Shown here in pieces: positions 1,606-18,060 of a stretch of 20,174 nt of DNA; position 1 is the first letter of the stretch; each line of letters starts with the position of its first letter. Made by a program: the position numbers and the translations under genes. Under the pieces are notes generated by a model that saw only the letters and a list, made by a program, of their open reading frames with translations, searched no databases and was not told where the DNA came from. Where the stretch lies: positions 1 through 20,174 of IMG/VR virus record IMGVR_UViG_3300047560_000469; one strand, 5' to 3'. This stretch comes from a virus.

Positions 1606-1658
1606 ATAGGTGTATTTATCCATAGTTTTGCTATATGATTACGAAAAAGGAGCTATTT

Positions 1659-1856
1659 ATGAACCCAACTGACCTATTAAAAATTGAGTTTGGAAGCCTT
1701 GTAAACCTTGCCGAAAAGCTTGGAATCAAGCCTCAAACCATCTATTTATGGAACTCAACCAAGATTCCATTTAAATATTTGCGCCAAATTGAGCAGCTTT
1801 CTGAGTTGCGTTTAACAAGAGAAATGCTAAGACCTGACCTTTTTAAAAAGGACTGA
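1659..1856 (+). CDS. YdaS/Cro-like helix-turn-helix repressor
   Basis: This is a 65-residue DNA-binding protein of the YdaS/Cro-like type. Residues 11-43 (FGSLVNLAEKLGIKPQTIYL and on) form a helix-turn-helix with the usual AEKLGIKPQTIYLW recognition pattern. The ending RLTREMLRPDLF is characteristic of these small Cro-like proteins, where the matching stretch is often LTRxxLRPDxF. The start at 1659 is chosen because AAAAAGGAGC lies six bases upstream; the ATG at 1635 has no such site. It heads the rightward replication operon directly after a control region with a dyad, so autoregulation and control of the lytic/lysogenic choice are plausible. In the Escherichia coli Rac prophage, YdaS is likewise near a YdaU-like gene. 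No CI-type repressor is visible in the window. Confidence 0.8.
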   Translation: MNPTDLLKIEFGSLVNLAEKLGIKPQTIYLWNSTKIPFKYLRQIEQLSELRLTREMLRPDLFKKD

Positions 1857-1857
1857 A

Positions 1858-2502
1858 ATGCACTATTACAAGTTCAACATAGGGGACTGGCATTTGGCTA
1901 CTAGCCATCTAAGTCTTGAAGAAGAAGCCGTTTATTTCAAGCTTATTAACTACTATTACGATACTGAATTGCCTATCCCAGTAGAAACCCAATCGGTTAT
2001 TAGACGCTTACGCTTGGGTTCTGTTAAGGATATTGTTGGGATAGTTTTATCTGAGTTTTTTGTTTTGCAAGATGATGGTTGGCATCATTTAAGGTGTGAT
2101 GAGGAAATTTCTAAGTATCACCATAAGGCAGAAGTCAATCAGCGTATAGGGAAATTAGGTGGTAGACCTAAGAAAACCCAATCGGTTTCGGAAGGGTTAC
2201 CACAAATAACCCTAACCACTAACCAAGAACCACTAACCAGTAGTAAGCCAAAAAAGAGAAAGACTGCTATGACTTTAAATAAAGATACGATGCCTGAAAA
2301 GTATGAGGACTTTATTCGCGAAGAACGACCTGACCTAGATCCTTTACAAACCTATTACAAATTCTGCGATTACTGGCTTGGTAATGGAGAAACCAAAGCT
2401 GATTGGTTAGCAACATGGCGTAATTGGGTACGAAATGAGAAGAAGCAATTTAAACCCAAATCTGACAATAACTTTGATGACTTAATGAGGATGGCAAAAT
2501 GA
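1858..2502 (+). CDS. DUF1376 (YdaU-like) replication protein
   Basis: This is a 214-residue protein with an N-terminal DUF1376 domain: MHYYKFNIGDWHLATSHLSL, then EEEAVYFKLINYYYDTE and RRLRLG, covering roughly residues 3-85. After a polar linker rich in Lys, Thr and Ser (about 100-140) comes a C-terminal segment with many Trp residues (YWLGNGETKADWLATWRNWV, about 171-190). That segment resembles the tails of phage replication initiators and DnaT-like primosome proteins. DUF1376 proteins lie in the initiator/helicase-loader position of many lambdoid-type operons. The gene starts one base after the Cro-like gene's stop, behind an AAAAAGGAC site, and overlaps the next gene by ATGA. I infer that it recruits or loads the downstream DnaB-type helicase at the origin. 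Confidence 0.75.
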   Translation: MHYYKFNIGDWHLATSHLSLEEEAVYFKLINYYYDTELPIPVETQSVIRRLRLGSVKDIVGIVLSEFFVLQDDGWHHLRCDEEISKYHHKAEVNQRIGKLGGRPKKTQSVSEGLPQITLTTNQEPLTSSKPKKRKTAMTLNKDTMPEKYEDFIREERPDLDPLQTYYKFCDYWLGNGETKADWLATWRNWVRNEKKQFKPKSDNNFDDLMRMAK

Positions 2503-2810
2503 TTGGACAAAATGAATTGTTGAAATACTTGACGAATGGTGGAGTTGTAAAAAGCGTATTTTTGCTAGTAGGTGAAAAACCTGATTGGTTTGATCCTAAA
2601 AAGCAAGAAGATATGTCCATGCCAATGATCTATACAGGCAAGAGAAATCCTCAGCCATTAGACCTAAAGTTTCTTAAAGGTCAAAATATACAGTTAATTC
2701 ACGCTAAAAACGCCTCTGACGAGCTTTTTGCTAGGTGGTATATACATACCCATCAACTTCAGTCAAAAACGCTTGTAGCGCTTGATAGCGATGGGGTCAT
2801 TCATGTTTAA
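2499..2810 (+). CDS. Hypothetical protein in the replication operon
   Basis: This is a 103-residue protein I do not recognise. The sequence alternates strands and helices (VVKSVFLLVGEKPDWFDP, QNIQLIHAKNASDELFARWY, KTLVALDSDGVIHV), suggesting a small alpha/beta fold. HAKNASDELFARWYIHTHQL may be an amphipathic helix. No nuclease or zinc motif stands out. It begins at an ATGA overlap with the DUF1376 gene and its stop overlaps the start of the helicase gene, so it is certainly co-translated with both. A replication accessory role fits the context, but this is inference only. Confidence 0.65.
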   Translation: MIGQNELLKYLTNGGVVKSVFLLVGEKPDWFDPKKQEDMSMPMIYTGKRNPQPLDLKFLKGQNIQLIHAKNASDELFARWYIHTHQLQSKTLVALDSDGVIHV

Positions 2811-3714
2811 AAATATTGTTTCTGATATTGATTTTCAGGAATATTCCGAACTGCATAATTTAGTTTATGAAGTTTCACAACTTTCAGAACTTGCTGATGA
2901 CATCAAAGCATTTTCAAGAGGTGAATATTTTGCTAAAGGCGTTAAGTTGCCGTGGTCAAAAACCCATCAGCAAATTGAGCTTAGACCAGCTGAGTTGTCG
3001 TTATGGGGTGGATCTACTGGTCATGGCAAATCTTTGTTGATAGGACAAGTCATCCTTTCAATCATGGAGCAAGGTAAAAAATGCTTGATTGCAAGCTTTG
3101 AAATGCCACCAGTTTCAACCCTTTTTAGGATGACTAGACAAGCTACAGGCATGAAACATCCAACTGAAATGTCTATTGATGCTTTTGCTGATTGGGGTAA
3201 TGACCATCTTTATATTTATAAACATACAGGAATGGTTGATGGATTAAAAGTTTTGGCTATGTGCCGATATGCCTCAGAAGTCTTAAAAATTGAACATTTG
3301 GTCATTGATAATTTGATGACTTGCGTTAATGGCGAAGATGACTACAACGCGCAGAAGAACTTTGTATCGACGATCAAATCTATTGCGCTATCAACTGGAA
3401 TGCACATTCATTTAATTTGCCATGTAAGAAAGGTAAATAGTGAAAAAGAGATTCCAATAATGAGCGACATTAAAGGCTCGTCAGCCGTTACTAGCTTTGC
3501 AGATAATGTATTTTTAGTGTGGAAAAATGCAGAAAAAGCTCAAAAAGTAGCTGAAAATCCTCATCATTTTGATCGCGAAGAAGCTGATGCAATCCTAAGA
3601 TGCACTAAGAATAGGAATGGCGAATCAACTCCTATGTATAAGCTTTGGTTTGATTACAAATCTCAGCAATATTTAGAAGAAGCCGATAGCCATTTGCATA
3701 GGTATTTGGAATGA
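2803..3714 (+). CDS. DnaB-family replicative helicase (helicase domain only)
   Basis: This 303-residue RecA-fold ATPase has the hexameric replicative helicase motifs in order. Walker A is GSTGHGKS (70-77), then SFEMP with the likely catalytic Glu (E100), Walker B HLVIDN (165-170), the H3-like HIHLICHVRK (201-210), DIKGSSAVTSFADN (222-235) and CTKNRNGE (267-274), which may supply an arginine finger. There is only about 60 residues before the ATPase core, so neither a primase/Toprim domain nor a full DnaB N-terminal domain is present. This looks like the helicase half of a T7 gp4/Twinkle-type protein. The ATG at 2803 is chosen, with GATGGGG upstream; TTG 2782 and ATG 2791 are alternatives. It would unwind DNA at the phage fork with the DUF1376 protein as probable partner and with host or unseen primase. 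Confidence 0.85.
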   Translation: MFKNIVSDIDFQEYSELHNLVYEVSQLSELADDIKAFSRGEYFAKGVKLPWSKTHQQIELRPAELSLWGGSTGHGKSLLIGQVILSIMEQGKKCLIASFEMPPVSTLFRMTRQATGMKHPTEMSIDAFADWGNDHLYIYKHTGMVDGLKVLAMCRYASEVLKIEHLVIDNLMTCVNGEDDYNAQKNFVSTIKSIALSTGMHIHLICHVRKVNSEKEIPIMSDIKGSSAVTSFADNVFLVWKNAEKAQKVAENPHHFDREEADAILRCTKNRNGESTPMYKLWFDYKSQQYLEEADSHLHRYLE

Positions 3715-4367
3715 AAGTTATCCCCATTAAAAATGAGGAAACCTATGAATGGTTGCTTAAAAAGCATTATGCCAAGCGCATTCCGCAGATCATGTTTGCC
3801 TTTGGTCTTTATGAGGATAGCCAGTTGGTAGGCGTTTGCACTTACGGAATACCGGCTAGTCCTAGCCTTTGCATGGGCATTTGTGGCAAAGAATATGCCG
3901 ATAAAGTCTTGGAGCTAAACAGGGTTTGCTTGATGGATAACTCAAAAAATCAAGCCAGTTTTCTTGTAGCCAACTCAATTAAGTTATTGCCAAAACCAAC
4001 CATAGTCGTTTCCTATGCTGATACTGGCAAAGGTCATGTAGGTTATGTCTATCAGGCTACGAATTTCTTGTATACAGGGCTATCCGCGCAACGAGTTGAT
4101 TGGACTGTCAAAGGCTTAGAGCATAAGCATTCCAAGACCTTATCTGATGGCATGACATTGGAATCCATTAAAGAAAAATATGGTGATGATTTTTACTATG
4201 TAGAAAGGTCAAGAAAGCATAGATACATTTACTTTCATGGTGATAAACGCCAAAAAAAGTTGATGAATAGTTTATTGAAATATGAGATCGAGCCATACCC
4301 TAAAGGCGATTCTCAGAAATACGATTCAGGTTCTAAAGTAGTTACTCAAGGGTTGTTATTTGGATAA
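3711..4367 (+). CDS. mom: Mom-family DNA adenine modification protein
   Basis: This 218-residue protein resembles the Mom family, named after the phage Mu protein that converts adenine in DNA to a bulky N6-acetamido derivative and so blocks many restriction enzymes. Recognisable blocks are KHYAKRIPQIMFAFGLY (18-34), LVGVCTYGIPASP (39-51), LELNRVCL (67-74), ASFLVANSIKLLPKP (82-96) and the most telling one, VSYADTGKGHVGYVYQATNF (100-119), followed by YTGLSA. The fold is GNAT-like. D104 and the His/Tyr pair at 19-20 are conserved-looking polar residues, but their roles are not shown here. It overlaps the helicase gene by ATGA, so it is expressed with the replication genes and not late as in Mu. 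No Com-like zinc-finger activator or DNA methyltransferase gene is visible nearby. Family call is good by eye; activity is inferred. Confidence 0.8.
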   Translation: MKVIPIKNEETYEWLLKKHYAKRIPQIMFAFGLYEDSQLVGVCTYGIPASPSLCMGICGKEYADKVLELNRVCLMDNSKNQASFLVANSIKLLPKPTIVVSYADTGKGHVGYVYQATNFLYTGLSAQRVDWTVKGLEHKHSKTLSDGMTLESIKEKYGDDFYYVERSRKHRYIYFHGDKRQKKLMNSLLKYEIEPYPKGDSQKYDSGSKVVTQGLLFG

Positions 4368-4376
4368 GGAGAAAAA

Positions 4377-4715
4377 ATGGAAGATATTAACCCCAATCAA
4401 GCAGTAGATTTTTTGTTAAAAAACGCAGGGCTATACGCCAAAGCTAAAGCTCAAAGGGTTTATTTAGAGGAATTTAGGAAATCTAAGAAAGCTTTATTGA
4501 TGCAAGAAGCTTTGTTAGCTGGCGTAGATACTATGGCTGGTCAGGAACGCGATGCCTATGCTAGAAGCGAATATAGGGAAATCCTAGATGGTCTTAAAGA
4601 AGCAGTTGAGATTGAGGAAAAACTAAAATGGCAACTAACTGGCGCACAACTCAGAGTTGATATTTGGAGAACTAATCAAGCTAATAATCGATTTATTGAA
4701 AAGGCTACACAATGA
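4377..4715 (+). CDS. Hypothetical helical protein, replication operon
   Basis: This is a 112-residue, strongly helical, charged protein (AKAKAQRVYLEEFRKSKKAL, then DGLKEAVEIEEKLKWQL and RVDIWRTNQANNR), probably coiled-coil. It resembles small proteins often found beside phage annealing or recombination genes, which have no assigned biochemical role as far as I know. AAGGAGAAAA lies directly upstream of the ATG. The gap from the Mom gene is nine bases and the stop overlaps the next gene by ATGA. Function unknown; a structural or recombination accessory role is only a guess. Confidence 0.75.
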   Translation: MEDINPNQAVDFLLKNAGLYAKAKAQRVYLEEFRKSKKALLMQEALLAGVDTMAGQERDAYARSEYREILDGLKEAVEIEEKLKWQLTGAQLRVDIWRTNQANNRFIEKATQ

Positions 4716-4981
4716 CAAAAAATGACCAAAACTTATTAAAACAGATGATCCGCGCAGGGCATTTTAGCTATGACATTTACTTGCTTTTAGTGGAGCATAA
4801 CAAGGTAGTGGCTAAAGAAATGATTGCCAAAATGGGTAACAAATGGTGTCTCCATCCTGACAATGCCGTAAAGCGCTTAAATACGCCTTTACCGCTTTTA
4901 AATCAACCAACTGAGGCAAAGGTATTAAAAAGGAAAAAAGCAGAGCCTAAAGAGCCTATTCCGTTCTTAGGATGGGCATAG
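4712..4981 (+). CDS. Hypothetical protein, last gene of the rightward operon
   Basis: This is an 89-residue protein without a family I recognise. Residues 1-45 look helical (LLKQMIRAGHFSYDIYLLLV), and the second half is basic and proline-rich (KVLKRKKAEPKEPIPFLGWA), suggesting a disordered tail. The N-terminal part has some resemblance to winged-helix or helical-bundle adaptors but no clear motif. It starts at an ATGA overlap with the preceding gene and is the last gene before the convergent gap, with the stop at 4979-4981. Confidence 0.65.
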   Translation: MTKNDQNLLKQMIRAGHFSYDIYLLLVEHNKVVAKEMIAKMGNKWCLHPDNAVKRLNTPLPLLNQPTEAKVLKRKKAEPKEPIPFLGWA

Positions 4982-5067: not shown

Positions 5068-5673
5068 CTATGCGTTTCTTAGAATTGCTAGGACTTTCTG
5101 AGTTCTAGCTTTTCTATCTTCTAAGCCTAAAGTGCCACCATTAATCTTTTTGGTAATGCCTTCAATGTCCATTTTGTCAGCTAATTCGTTTAGATTGCGC
5201 TTATTCCAATACCAACCAGCGCTTAAAGTCGCATATTCAGGAGTAGTAAGCAAATCAGGATTACTGAGAACATCCACACCAACATTATGTCCAAAGTTTG
5301 CATAGTTTTCGCGCCCAGTAAGTTGGATTAAGCCACGACCATGATACTTCCAACCATCACCTTCCTCAATGTTGCCCATACGACCGGCGTAGACTTTATT
5401 GGCAATCTTTTCAGGATTATGTTCAAACTTTTCAGCAGTATCAAGATCAGGGAAACGACTAGACCAAGTTCTCATTAAGCCTTGAGCAGAATAATTTAGG
5501 TTTTCAGATAAAGACTTAAAAGAGTTGCTTTCGTGCATTACCTGAGCTAGAAAACAAGCTTGTCTTTCAGGAGTATTGATGTCGTACTTGTCAAAACATT
5601 TATTTAAACCATCTAACCATTTTTCTTCTAAACCAAGCGCGTTGAGCTTTTCAGTTGTTATCTGAGCCATCAT
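5068..5673 (-). CDS. GH19-type endolysin (chitinase-like muramidase)
   Basis: This 201-residue protein is a glycoside hydrolase family 19-type lysin, which cuts the glycan strands of peptidoglycan at the end of infection. Landmarks are FLAQVMHESNSFKSLSENLN (41-60), with E48 as likely general acid and E57 as likely second acid, then YSAQGL, followed by YHGRGLIQLTGRENYANFG (110-128) and SAGWYW (151-156). It has no signal peptide or peptidoglycan-binding extension, so it would depend on a holin to cross the membrane. The start has two adjacent ATGs (5673 and 5670) behind AGGAC; the second has the better spacing. It overlaps the holin-like gene upstream by 23 bases and is the last gene of the late operon. 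Confidence 0.9.
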   Translation of the reverse strand: MMAQITTEKLNALGLEEKWLDGLNKCFDKYDINTPERQACFLAQVMHESNSFKSLSENLNYSAQGLMRTWSSRFPDLDTAEKFEHNPEKIANKVYAGRMGNIEEGDGWKYHGRGLIQLTGRENYANFGHNVGVDVLSNPDLLTTPEYATLSAGWYWNKRNLNELADKMDIEGITKKINGGTLGLEDRKARTQKVLAILRNA

Positions 5674-5875: not shown

Positions 5876-6272
5876 TATTCCTATTTTTCATTTCCATAAT
5901 CTTTTCAAAGCTACGACCACCAAAATAGGCGGTCATCACTAACATTCCCCATTGACCTAGCAACTCCACATAAGCGCCTCTAGTCTCATGTCCTAGCATG
6001 GACATAAACGCAAAGAATGAGTATGCAAAAAGGATAAAAATAAGGGTTAAAGGTCGAATGTTCTTAGCTAACCAAGAATCGCTAGAAAGGTCTGATTTCC
6101 AACGATCTGAGATATTGTTAGCCTCATTCATATCAGCTTGCAACTCAGCTAATTTGCCATCCTGAGCTAGTTTCTGAAGCTCTAATTGAGCTTGTGCTTT
6201 GGCTTGTGGATCAGGTATTACCTTGTCGATAATCTTTAATCCTGCGCCAACAATATCGTCTATTCCAAACAT
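5862..6272 (-). CDS. GTA-holin-like (3TM holin family) membrane protein
   Basis: This 136-residue protein resembles the three-TM holin family first described for gene transfer agent release. The N-terminal third is amphipathic and helical (IIDKVIPDPQAKAQAQLELQ), then DRWKSDLSSDSWLAKNIRPL leads into a clear transmembrane helix (about 74-93, LTLIFILFAYSFFAFMSM). A second hydrophobic segment (about 101-117) follows and a charged tail ends the protein. The family's WLAKNIRP-type entry into the first helix is visible. The ATG overlaps the preceding stop (TAATG). With the adjacent 74-residue membrane protein and the endolysin it forms the lysis cassette; it would open the inner membrane for the lysin. 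Confidence 0.8.
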   Translation of the reverse strand: MFGIDDIVGAGLKIIDKVIPDPQAKAQAQLELQKLAQDGKLAELQADMNEANNISDRWKSDLSSDSWLAKNIRPLTLIFILFAYSFFAFMSMLGHETRGAYVELLGQWGMLVMTAYFGGRSFEKIMEMKNRNNDGK

Positions 6273-7127: not shown

Positions 7128-8237
7128 TTATAACTCCGCAGAATAACCAACATAGGAAGATGCAGAATCACAACGAACTTCAGTTGCATTACCACCTGTG
7201 CCTGAATTGGAACAATATATGAGTGCAGTTTCAGCAGTAGAAGCTGAATTAATAGAAAGCGTAGTTACATAAGAACCAGCAGTATTTGCGTAAGTGATAA
7301 AATAATTTGAACCACTAGCAACATATAAAGTTGGCGTTGTTCTCATCGTTACTTTTAACGGAACTGCAAATTGTGCTGTTGTAGAATTATATTGAGAACC
7401 ATGAGAAATTGTTTTATTAGAACCATTAGCTTGCATCCAAAAATAGCGTTGGCATAATGCAAGTTCAGTAGTGTATTGACGATAATCAAAGCTAGTAGCA
7501 CTACTTCCTACTTCTAGTTGAACACCAGTAATGTAGAAGGTTGCACCATTTGTTCCTACTACGGATGTTGCACCTGTGCAAGTTACCACATTTCCTGTTC
7601 CCCAAGAACCAGCCGCTTGAGAATAAGTAGAACCAGCACCTAAACCAAATCGCACTACAATTCCTACGCCATTAGTTGTTAGCCAAGTTCCACTTGTATC
7701 TCCAGTAATTGTTACTGAAATTGATGTCCAAGTATTTGCGGAAGAAATTGTGTAAGAAAAAGCATAAGAACGATTTGTAGCACTATTTAATATTGCACCG
7801 CCAAATGTTCCTGTTAATGAGGAGTAAACTTGAAATGACAAAGTTACTGTTTTAGCATTAGCTGTTCCCCAAGATAAATCAGCAATGTTATAACCTTCAA
7901 TAGATTGCTGTAAAAAGAAATAATCGCCTGTAAGAACTGAATATGCTGAAGAAGAAGTGCATCCTAAATAATTGCTAAAACCTGCTGGTGGTGTTACTGA
8001 ACCAGCATTTTGTTGAACTGTATATTTAGATGATTGACTATTCCATGCTTTCCATCTGTCAAGTGTGTAATCATTTGCGGCAGTAACACTAGCACCAGCA
8101 TTTCTTTGGTCAATAACCATCGCTGAATTTATCAGCCTATTTTTCATGCTTACAGAAGGAGTAACTGCGTTAGCACTTATAGTGCCGTTATACATTGGCG
8201 TTGTTATGCCAGTATCGCCATTTAAAGTAATACTCAT
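7128..8237 (-). CDS. Tail fibre/receptor-binding adhesin
   Basis: This 369-residue protein is a phage adhesin of the common type with an N-terminal repeat-like start (SITLNGDTGITTPMYNGTIS), then KNRLINSAMVIDQRNAGASV and YTLDRWKAW. A carbohydrate-binding-like beta domain follows, with VQLEVGSSATSFDYRQYTTE leading to LALCQRYFW (about 241-268), which is a very frequent signature in phage fibres. The last 100 residues are a separate Ser/Thr-rich tip, probably the specificity part. The ATG overlaps the HNH gene's stop (ATGA). It is the largest of four adhesin-like genes in this stretch and likely binds a cell-surface glycan; the receptor cannot be inferred. Confidence 0.8.
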   Translation of the reverse strand: MSITLNGDTGITTPMYNGTISANAVTPSVSMKNRLINSAMVIDQRNAGASVTAANDYTLDRWKAWNSQSSKYTVQQNAGSVTPPAGFSNYLGCTSSSAYSVLTGDYFFLQQSIEGYNIADLSWGTANAKTVTLSFQVYSSLTGTFGGAILNSATNRSYAFSYTISSANTWTSISVTITGDTSGTWLTTNGVGIVVRFGLGAGSTYSQAAGSWGTGNVVTCTGATSVVGTNGATFYITGVQLEVGSSATSFDYRQYTTELALCQRYFWMQANGSNKTISHGSQYNSTTAQFAVPLKVTMRTTPTLYVASGSNYFITYANTAGSYVTTLSINSASTAETALIYCSNSGTGGNATEVRCDSASSYVGYSAEL

Positions 8238-8752
8238 GCTAACTCCTCATCTGTTGGTTTAGCTAGTGTTGGATGATTAGCAAACTTGCCATGAAACTTA
8301 TCTCTAGCTTCGCTTGCACATAATATAGCCAATTCTAAATCAGCTATGTCTTTTTGGAATTTAATTCCCATACTTTTGTTCTCCACGCTTACACGCCATT
8401 TTTGTTTGGCACGATTCCAACAAACATTTTTATAACCAGTAACATTATTTTTACGCAATCCAATATTGGCATTGTTTTCAGAATAACTAGCTGGTCGTAA
8501 ATTCTCAATACGATTATCTAATTTATTGCCGTTTACATGGTCAATAGTTTGTGGCAAATATCCGTTGTGATACACAAATACGGCACGATGAAACCAATGT
8601 AACTCTTGGTCAAACTTAATCTGTTCGTAGCGACCATCTGTGTTTCTATTAGCTTTATCACCTTTTTTGGCACGACCTTTATCCAACTTCCAATAGAAGT
8701 TACCATCTTTGTAATCAAAGAGTTGATGTAAGCGGTCTTTATTTAACGGCAT
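8234..8752 (-). CDS. HNH endonuclease with AP2-like DNA-binding region
   Basis: This 172-residue protein is an HNH endonuclease of the free-standing homing type. The HNH core is WFHRAVFVYHNGYLPQTIDH (53-72) and the following VNGNKLDNRIENLRP; H55, D71, H72, N80 and R81 match the expected metal/catalytic positions. Residues 105-150 (TGYKNVCWNRAKQKWRVSVE and on) resemble an AP2-type DNA-binding module. It is inserted between tail-fibre genes. Its first 14 bases overlap the end of the 59-codon gene upstream in transcription. Its last 14 residues (NHPTLAKPTDEELA) closely echo that gene's C-terminus and do not look like part of the nuclease, so the gene end may have been captured when the HNH gene entered. 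Confidence 0.85.
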   Translation of the reverse strand: MPLNKDRLHQLFDYKDGNFYWKLDKGRAKKGDKANRNTDGRYEQIKFDQELHWFHRAVFVYHNGYLPQTIDHVNGNKLDNRIENLRPASYSENNANIGLRKNNVTGYKNVCWNRAKQKWRVSVENKSMGIKFQKDIADLELAILCASEARDKFHGKFANHPTLAKPTDEELA

Positions 8753-15850: not shown

Positions 15851-16294
15851 TCATTCTCCTTTTAACTTCCTTAGAGGACATTGGATGTCTAGCCACCGAC
15901 AATCCTCTTTCCTCATAGCCATGATTACCAAATCGCCATCCATGTGTGCATCAGGTATTTCGGCTACTACTTTAAAGCCTAAGTGTCGGTTTAACCTTAG
16001 TGCATCTGTATTACTTTTACAGATTTGTCCTAGTATAACCTTTACGCCTAGTTTATTAAAGGGGTAATCGAAAGCTGCCCATAATAAATCGCGATTCATC
16101 CAATTTGTTTCATCTAGCGCACCTATGTGCATCTGACAAGCGTTTGGCATAAAACTGCAATACCCAACGACTGCCACTAAATTTCCATCAATTTCTTGTC
16201 CAATACATACTGTTTCTTCAGGTAATGGATGGTTCATTAAACGAACCAACCAATCGCCCATATATCTCTGATCTTCAGTAGTTACTCTACGCAT
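15851..16294 (-). CDS. GNAT-family N-acetyltransferase
   Basis: This 147-residue protein has the fold pattern of GCN5-related acetyltransferases. The middle strand region (CIGQEIDGNLVAVVGYCSFM, 30-49) and the C-terminal motif (SNTDALRLNRHLGFKVVAEI, 94-113) fit well; the latter is the usual N-x-x-x-x-x-L-x-x-x-L-G-F-x-x pattern. The acetyl-CoA pyrophosphate loop is not obvious, so activity is uncertain. The start at 16294 is chosen because it overlaps the nozzle gene's stop (TAATG) and AGAGGTGG lies upstream; an upstream non-ATG frame start lies in the nozzle gene. Position among virion genes suggests modification of a phage or host protein, but the substrate is unknown. It may also be a structural relative without activity. 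Confidence 0.8.
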   Translation of the reverse strand: MRRVTTEDQRYMGDWLVRLMNHPLPEETVCIGQEIDGNLVAVVGYCSFMPNACQMHIGALDETNWMNRDLLWAAFDYPFNKLGVKVILGQICKSNTDALRLNRHLGFKVVAEIPDAHMDGDLVIMAMRKEDCRWLDIQCPLRKLKGE

Positions 16295-18060
16295 TAGAGA
16301 ACGCCACCTCTTTCCATTACATAATCGGTAGAAGCCCAATGCAACTCGATTCCTTGAGAAGCAATATTGATGTTGATTGAGCCACTAAATCCTAATCCTG
16401 TTACACCTTGCCAAATCTTAGTAGTAGTTAATCCACCACCCCAATTAGCTTGATCCCAATTAGATTCATCCCATTTACCGATGTTGATAATGGATGGGTT
16501 AAACGCTATTTGATTTGTAAGAGGAACAGTATCGTAATCTACTGAGATTCCACAAAGAACAGTTGGTACGCCATTGGTTGTTTGTAGAATTGGTCGAACC
16601 AATGTGAATCGTTTTAATTGCCCCGGACTATCAAAGTATGAATACGCTTGTTGTGCAGTTGCAACAATGTTGTTCCCTGCATCAGAATAACCATCATAGA
16701 ACTTGCCAACAAATCCTTGACCACCAAAGTGCATATCAGCATCGCCTGATACTTCCCAACAATAAGCTTCTACGCCTGTAAATCGCGCCCAAGATTTAGT
16801 GATGGTGTGCATAACAAACTGTTCCATTCCTGAGCTTGTAGGAATAGACAAAATCAGCATATTTTCAGAGGCATAGTAATTAATTTGCCATCCAAAAAGG
16901 TCAAAGTATTGAGTTGCTGCTTGGCTTACTGCATAATAAATCTTGTCAGTAAGGTTAATTCTAGGATCTAAACGACTAGATTGAAGGGCAGAAGCAAGAG
17001 GAACTAAGCCATCTTGGGTTAGCAATAATAGATCGCCAGCCCATTTAAAAAAGCATCTACGAGCAAATGTTTGTCCAAGTTGCCAAATGCCCTTTAGTTG
17101 CCATGTTTCGGCAGTATCAGGATCAGTTCCGTTGTAAACAACCACTTCACCCATGCTTGTAACGAATACTGCATAGTCATCAACGCCTTGACCAGCATCA
17201 ATAGTCCATGTTCCCATAGCTTGTAAATAGCCTGAGTTACGGACTAAACCACCAAAAGGTAATGGAGAAGCAACTCCACCAATCTCATCAACGCCTAAAT
17301 ACCAAGCATTTAGACTGTCTTTTTCGGTGAAATAAAGACGATTTTTAAATAGGTTTACATTGACAAATTTGCTTGAATCTATGCCTGTAATGCCAATAAC
17401 TGTATATGATCCTACAACTGTAGCGTTAGCTGCTGGAGTTGAAGCCATCGTATATTGGAATGTGCTTGATCCAGTTACATTGATTACATAAGTTCCGTTG
17501 TATTCACTAGAACTAGCACCTGAAATGGTTACTCGGTTGCCATCAATTAATCCATGAGGACTAGCAGTTGTTAGAGTTGCGACTGAGCCTACATGGGTTA
17601 TTGAGCTAATGGTTTGAGCAGTTGATGTAGTTGCTACAAAGAACCATCTTGTGCCATCAAAAATGACTACTGGATCTACGCCATTACAAGCTACCAAGAA
17701 ATGACCAGCTGCGTTTGTCATGTTGGTGTGCTGAAGTTTTGAACTTGTCAATCCATCAAAGAACTCAACGGCAGTCGATGGTTTGGCATCGTAAATCTTA
17801 GTTCCTGCTGCAGCGAATAAGCGATAACCAGCTTCTAAGCTTGTATCGGTATAGTTCATCAAGGAATAAACATTCCCTGTAATGCCTGTAGATGACTTTG
17901 TATAGCCTTTTCTTAGCGTTACATCAGTAGGTGTTGGAAACAGATTAACTAAAGTAACTGCATCCAATGGATTCATGTTCGCTTGAGAATCCCTAGCGTT
18001 CCATCCACCTATAGGAGCTGCCAAAGAAGTAGTTACGGCAGAACGACCTTTTGCTTGCAT
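16294..18060 (-). CDS. Tail nozzle-type protein (beta-propeller)
   Basis: This 588-residue protein resembles the podovirus tail nozzle or packaged-DNA stabilising proteins (T7 gp12/P22 gp10 role). It starts with AAPIGGWNARDSQANMNPLD, AVTLVNLFPTPTDVTLRKGY, a very common opening in such proteins. Repeating beta blade-like motifs follow, such as GYRLFAAAGTKIYD, AGHFLVACNGVDPVVIFDGT and NVNLFKNRLYFTEKDSLNAW. Between residues about 151 and 220 there is an extra module (ISSITHVGSVATLTTASPHG, LIDGNRVTISGASS, YNGTYVINVTGSSTFQYTM), which is a small beta domain found inserted in various phage proteins. It forms the end of the tail tube. GGAAG precedes the ATG. The adaptor gene lies directly upstream. 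Confidence 0.8.
   Translation of the reverse strand: MQAKGRSAVTTSLAAPIGGWNARDSQANMNPLDAVTLVNLFPTPTDVTLRKGYTKSSTGITGNVYSLMNYTDTSLEAGYRLFAAAGTKIYDAKPSTAVEFFDGLTSSKLQHTNMTNAAGHFLVACNGVDPVVIFDGTRWFFVATTSTAQTISSITHVGSVATLTTASPHGLIDGNRVTISGASSSEYNGTYVINVTGSSTFQYTMASTPAANATVVGSYTVIGITGIDSSKFVNVNLFKNRLYFTEKDSLNAWYLGVDEIGGVASPLPFGGLVRNSGYLQAMGTWTIDAGQGVDDYAVFVTSMGEVVVYNGTDPDTAETWQLKGIWQLGQTFARRCFFKWAGDLLLLTQDGLVPLASALQSSRLDPRINLTDKIYYAVSQAATQYFDLFGWQINYYASENMLILSIPTSSGMEQFVMHTITKSWARFTGVEAYCWEVSGDADMHFGGQGFVGKFYDGYSDAGNNIVATAQQAYSYFDSPGQLKRFTLVRPILQTTNGVPTVLCGISVDYDTVPLTNQIAFNPSIINIGKWDESNWDQANWGGGLTTTKIWQGVTGLGFSGSININIASQGIELHWASTDYVMERGGVL

Follow-up and report, generated by a model that had tools for sequence, protein, structure and literature searches.

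Mom-like genes are common in phages, and nearly all of them are unstudied beyond that of phage Mu. In Mu, mom is located at the genome end beside com, which overlaps it and encodes a zinc-finger translational activator, and its expression is late, activated by C and Dam-dependent. Mom was reported to be toxic when expressed artificially (PMC12707154). Genes whose products are 40-44% identical to the Mom protein studied here are found in phages LeeroyJenkins, CRP-902, Riggi, A511 and vB_EauM-23, most of them placed with early or replication genes. DNA is also modified by the orphan methyltransferases of phages and by glucosyltransferases of the T4 type, but these enzymes are unrelated to Mom and have another chemistry. 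The leading region of conjugative plasmids, as outlined in PMC11541004, is an early-entering site for varied anti-defence genes. The locus described below resembles that region in this respect, and differs from it as outlined there in that it is a single-gene slot in a phage replication operon and apparently receives DNA-modification enzymes alone.

The window, which is the whole stretch of 20,174 nucleotides that was analysed, is a 20 kb IMG/VR fragment. Its replication operon lies on the + strand and begins with a gene for a YdaS/Cro-like regulator (1635..1856; YdaS E=6.2e-13), followed by genes for a DUF1376 primosomal/replication-initiation protein (1858..2502; Pfam and PHROGs), a 103 aa protein found together with the helicase in relatives (2499..2810) and a DnaB-like replicative helicase (2782..3714). 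The helicase ORF matched DnaB_C (E=1.2e-12), phrog_5482 (E=1.8e-60) and phrog_239, and an in-frame ATG at 2806 is a likelier start than 2782. The mom gene (3711..4367) is next, and then come p112 (4377..4715), which is conserved in relatives and had no Pfam or PHROG match, and p89 (4712..4981), the final gene of the operon. Just past it is a terminator-like hairpin (5087..5109, + strand; 10-bp stem and T-run), which is a consensus match only. The genes for holin, endolysin and tail proteins are on the strand opposite to this Cro-led operon, and a Sak-type annealase was recognised by Pfam at 119-697. Among the tail genes there is a second GNAT-like acyltransferase (15851-16339, - strand; phrog_4470, E=6e-37), which is not Mom-like. 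An HNH endonuclease gene is inserted in the tail region (8234-8752, - strand), and its phrog_99 relative is adjacent to a methyltransferase gene in one related locus (L408).

The ORF at 3711..4367 (+ strand, ATG start, 218 aa) is intact and has exactly the bounds proposed in the earlier note, which had read it as a Mom-family gene downstream of a helicase gene. Its product matched PF25680 over profile positions 4-202 of 202 (E=2.7e-40; 138.7 bits against a cut-off of 27.1) and phrog_1384, 'Mom-like DNA modification protein' (E=8.8e-59), far above chance, which confirms that it is a Mom-family protein. The gene is thus a further member of a well-known family. Its start shares an ATGA with the stop of the helicase ORF, as the earlier note had described. 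That note also gave no methyltransferase gene nearby, in agreement with the Pfam and PHROGs scan, which named none among the window proteins scanned (some small ORFs were outside the scan); these absences refer to the 20 kb that were recorded. A scan of bacterial genomes returned four distant Mom relatives, all in MAGs, and no others.

The position of mom was then compared with the same junction in related phages, which is here called the slot and is defined as the interval from the last replication gene to p112. The helicase gene is its left flank in the window and p112 its right flank. Relatives with helicases about 90% identical had either p112 directly at the helicase stop or another gene at this place. 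The tally comprised dereplicated loci with p112 at least 70% identical and at least 1 kb of upstream sequence; its proportions are not population frequencies, because the loci came from several baits. In the near lineage, among the matches listed, there were 42 dereplicated loci, with 16 empty slots, in which the flanking genes abutted, and 26 occupied ones. All 26 occupied slots among these matches held a predicted DNA-modification enzyme, four of them recognised by predicted structure only. C5 methyltransferases were present in 12 slots, ten of one type and two of a second (PF00145 or DNA-methyltransferase PHROGs, phrog_842), and Mom in seven. A phrog_757 methyltransferase, an N6/N4 methyltransferase (PF01555) and a TET-associated glycosyltransferase (PF20691, TAGT) were each found at a single locus, and four loci had a 338 aa protein that neither Pfam nor PHROGs matched, again among the matches listed. 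Relatives of orphan methyltransferases and of T4-type glucosyltransferases are therefore positional alternatives to Mom in sister phages. Six of the seven Mom-bearing loci were retrieved with baits other than Mom or were the window itself, and one (L026) came through the Mom scan alone. Relatives retrieved with the helicase or Sak bait were mostly without Mom.

In one slot a C5 methyltransferase gene of the commoner type is followed by an HNH gene. The C5 methyltransferase-like ORF of another (L321) matched Pfam over residues 4-85 only and then diverges, and is possibly broken or recombined.

The borders of the slot were the same in empty and occupied relatives. Nucleotide homology to relatives with an empty slot or a methyltransferase ended at 3687/3688 in blastn alignments and junction sequences, placing the left border at 3688..3714 (+ strand), and restarted at 4356-4374, placing the right border at 4356..4377 (+ strand). 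In one empty-slot relative (L220), homology to the window extended over 1646-3687 and 4356-4718 and excluded mom. The reciprocal pattern was seen in two Mom-bearing loci with unrelated flanks (L009/L010), in which the matching block around mom covered 3711-4365 only. The helicase-p112 distance had two ranges, -7 to 7 nt and 646-1275 nt. As controls, three further junctions of the operon were measured in the same loci; they spanned 1 to 6, -70 to 24 and -38 to -1 nt, and none contained an insertion. At 65% identity the helicases formed four groups. At least two slot states were seen in each; empty slots occurred in all four and Mom in three of the four. The empty, Mom and methyltransferase states each occurred with different helicase alleles. 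The fact that slot states vary within helicase groups indicates that exchange happened repeatedly.

The best reading of this junction is a cargo slot that exchanges whole DNA-modification genes, Mom among them. The earlier note was correct in placing a Mom gene in the replication operon, and it overlooked that the gene is exchangeable cargo. It is probable that the Mom-type enzyme modifies adenines of its own phage DNA against restriction while sitting in a one-gene slot that swaps unrelated DNA-modification enzymes. We also lean, with less assurance, towards a dedicated single-gene cassette site that rotates unrelated DNA chemistries as a unit, in answer to both host restriction and modification-dependent restriction; the chemistries would be adenine carbamoylmethylation, cytosine/adenine methylation and base glycosylation.

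Phage genomes are mosaic, and mom could have arrived by chance as an ordinary anti-restriction gene at a general moron insertion point without functional preference. Mom-like genes occur in diverse contexts, in 308 of 50,697 phage records, many relatives of the window Mom have quite different neighbour genes, and the slot also holds small extra ORFs, one GNAT gene and one HNH gene, as this explanation would expect. We consider it unlikely in view of the uniform cargo, which comprises at least five unrelated kinds of DNA-modification enzyme in the 26 occupied slots listed, and of the three neighbouring junctions without insertions. The unannotated 338 aa cargo, which was examined last, is a further argument against it. 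The model of this protein (pLDDT 81) was closest to T4 beta-glucosyltransferase (Z 21.2), followed by T4 alpha-glucosyltransferase (Z about 19), as compared with at most 17.4 for generic glycosyltransferases, and many generic GT-B enzymes ranked below the two T4 enzymes in Foldseek. That this cargo acts on DNA was predicted from its slot position and then matched by its modelled fold.

Glycosyltransferase cargos require a hydroxylated base. A TET/JBP search of the records with such cargos gave no match, and its positive control was likewise silent; no hydroxymethylase of the thymidylate-synthase family (dCMP-hydroxymethylase type) was found in these records. The loci concerned are L378 (= L298), L331, L349, L350 and L353, and these negative searches count against the slot reading.

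The exchange of whole modification genes also bears on what the window Mom acts upon. Its AlphaFold model, built with 59 relatives, had a pLDDT of 90.5. The earlier note had expected a GNAT core, and the closest PDB entry to the model was Mu Mom 8bv8 (VIA-align Z 19.0 over 173 residues), which phmmer also matched over residues 17-198 (E=4.4e-11). The two proteins are about 30% identical, share family, fold and the Ser, His-Tyr, Arg, Tyr and Gln positions, and differ in an N-terminal extension that is present in Mu Mom and missing here. The codon of Ser83 (3957..3959, + strand) aligns with Ser124 of Mu Mom, and this residue was serine in 70 of 70 sequences; the title of 8bv8 describes the inactive mutant S124A of Mu Mom, and the entry accordingly has alanine in this column of the phmmer alignment. 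His19-Tyr20 (3765..3770, + strand) were invariant in the 70 sequences including Mu, as were Arg71, Tyr114 and Gln115. The SYADTGKGHVGYVYQATNFL block (4011..4070, + strand) contains S101, conserved in 69 of 70, and G111, Y114 and Q115, conserved in all 70. The blocks VSYADTGKGHVGYVYQATNF, NRVCL and KLLPKP, on which the earlier note had based its assignment, were all found and sit in conserved columns.

Purifying selection on Mom was evident from a median pairwise dN/dS of 0.12 (384 pairs with usable dS, of 1,225 among 50 sequences). The five computable pairs that include the window Mom had dN/dS of 0.03-0.09 at a synonymous divergence of 0.8-2.5; synonymous sites are saturated, and the strong constraint on Mom is therefore real. 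Mom was also more conserved than the neighbouring genes, which is not used as main evidence because the loci had been selected by Mom similarity.

A GNAT acyltransferase with a Mom fold could instead act on another substrate, such as a protein, a tRNA or a small molecule, and the fold does belong to the GNAT superfamily, in which generic enzymes reached Z values up to 12.7. The gap between this value and the 19.0 of Mu Mom, the conservation of the active-site Ser and HY motif of Mu and the alternation of the gene with DNA-modifying enzymes in the slot make another substrate quite improbable. By inheritance from its family, the predicted Mom would add the Mu-type group to adenine, which adds 57 Da in Mu, and so give N6-modified (methylcarbamoyl) adenine in DNA.

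Several loci contain additional proteins of these families. In L022-L026 the gene between helicase and Mom, directly upstream of the latter, encodes an acetyltransferase of the GNAT type (195 aa; Acetyltransf_7, E=1.7e-8). In L009/L010 a divergent second Mom-like protein (175 aa; phrog_1384, E=2e-20) directly precedes Mom (Mom at 6001), and tandem Mom-like pairs were also seen in L155 and L167.

The setting of mom differs from that in Mu, with the gene in a Cro-led replication operon without Com. The PF10122 zinc-ribbon search over 42 records recovered Mu's Com alone (E=1.2e-10), as the positive control, and found none in the window, in another 33 IMG/VR records or in seven named phages that carry Mom-like genes; no match to Com was obtained in LeeroyJenkins, CRP-902, Riggi and vB_EauM-23. 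A com-mom operon like that of Mu was thus not found in the window, in line with the earlier note, and the position of the gene argues against late, C-activated, Dam-dependent expression. From a Cro-led operon opposite to the lysis and tail strand, it is reasonable to expect that mom is timed differently from its Mu counterpart. The earlier note was right about the replication-operon position and the lack of Com, and this setting is not special. In the named phages with annotated regions, the Mom-like genes also lie among early or replication genes, as in LeeroyJenkins, where the gene is between primase/polymerase and DNA polymerase I. Because the 33 IMG/VR records and the seven named phages yielded no Com and the genes are sited early or with replication genes, an early Mom without Com is the common case in the family and no peculiarity of the window.

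Three other features of the mom start were considered. A special coupling of Mom to the helicase through the ATGA was rejected; several slot genes besides mom have the same overlap with the upstream gene, and the overlap therefore reflects the slot. An internal mom promoter was not indicated, with 8 promoter-like sites against 11.8 expected, which is not above shuffles and lends no support to a timing different from that in Mu. An inhibitory RNA structure at the mom start was rejected as well. Regulation of mom by Com-like control of translation or by a late activator of the Mu type, despite the position of the gene, is hardly credible. Although a fold of -18.4 kcal/mol (z -1.8) can form in the start region, 10 of 200 shuffles did as well and a 55-nt window gave z 0.03, Com was not found, no CxxC...C zinc-finger reading occurs around mom in any frame, and the late genes are on the opposite strand.

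In the exchange slot, the predicted Mom would covalently modify adenines of the phage DNA and so protect it from host restriction. At this junction the lineage would alternate between Mom, methyltransferases of several types, glycosyltransferases of two kinds and no gene. The start of each cargo coincides with the stop codon of a replication gene or lies next to it. Run-on translation within the early operon is therefore the probable mode of expression, and this position suggests that DNA would be modified during or just after replication. Swapping may proceed through homologous recombination between flanking genes, which the phage's own Sak annealase could promote.

To our knowledge the exchange slot has not been described before, and no earlier description of such a slot was found in the open-access literature. 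The helicase-p112 slot was found in none of LeeroyJenkins, CRP-902, Riggi, A511 and vB_EauM-23. No cultured model of it was found, since the cultured phages with p112 (FBPa19 and two Vibrio phages) have no annotated modification gene directly before p112. We read the IMG/VR contigs as placing the phage lineage mostly in freshwater. The slot, rather than mom itself, is the part worth following. Empty, Mom, methyltransferase and glycosyltransferase states at one junction form a natural isogenic series, which would permit a direct comparison of cost and benefit for each DNA modification. Slot position may also be a route to unannotated DNA-modification enzymes, as the structural model of the 338 aa protein suggests, and the locus bears on how a protein with such reported toxicity is tolerated without the layered controls of Mu.

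Two minor features of the related loci concern the genes next to the cargo. An ORF of 51-53 aa (YYIYDE...) precedes Mom in L354 (-818 to -663 from p112) and the T4-BGT-like cargo in L331, L349, L350 and L353 (-1182 to -1021), and a similar start is found in the TAGT locus (L378). In L381, L385, L409, L349, L350 and L353, the 103 aa protein and helicase are replaced as a unit by an unrelated protein, which is about 160-180 aa long and contains a Cys/His-rich segment, and the slot persists after it.
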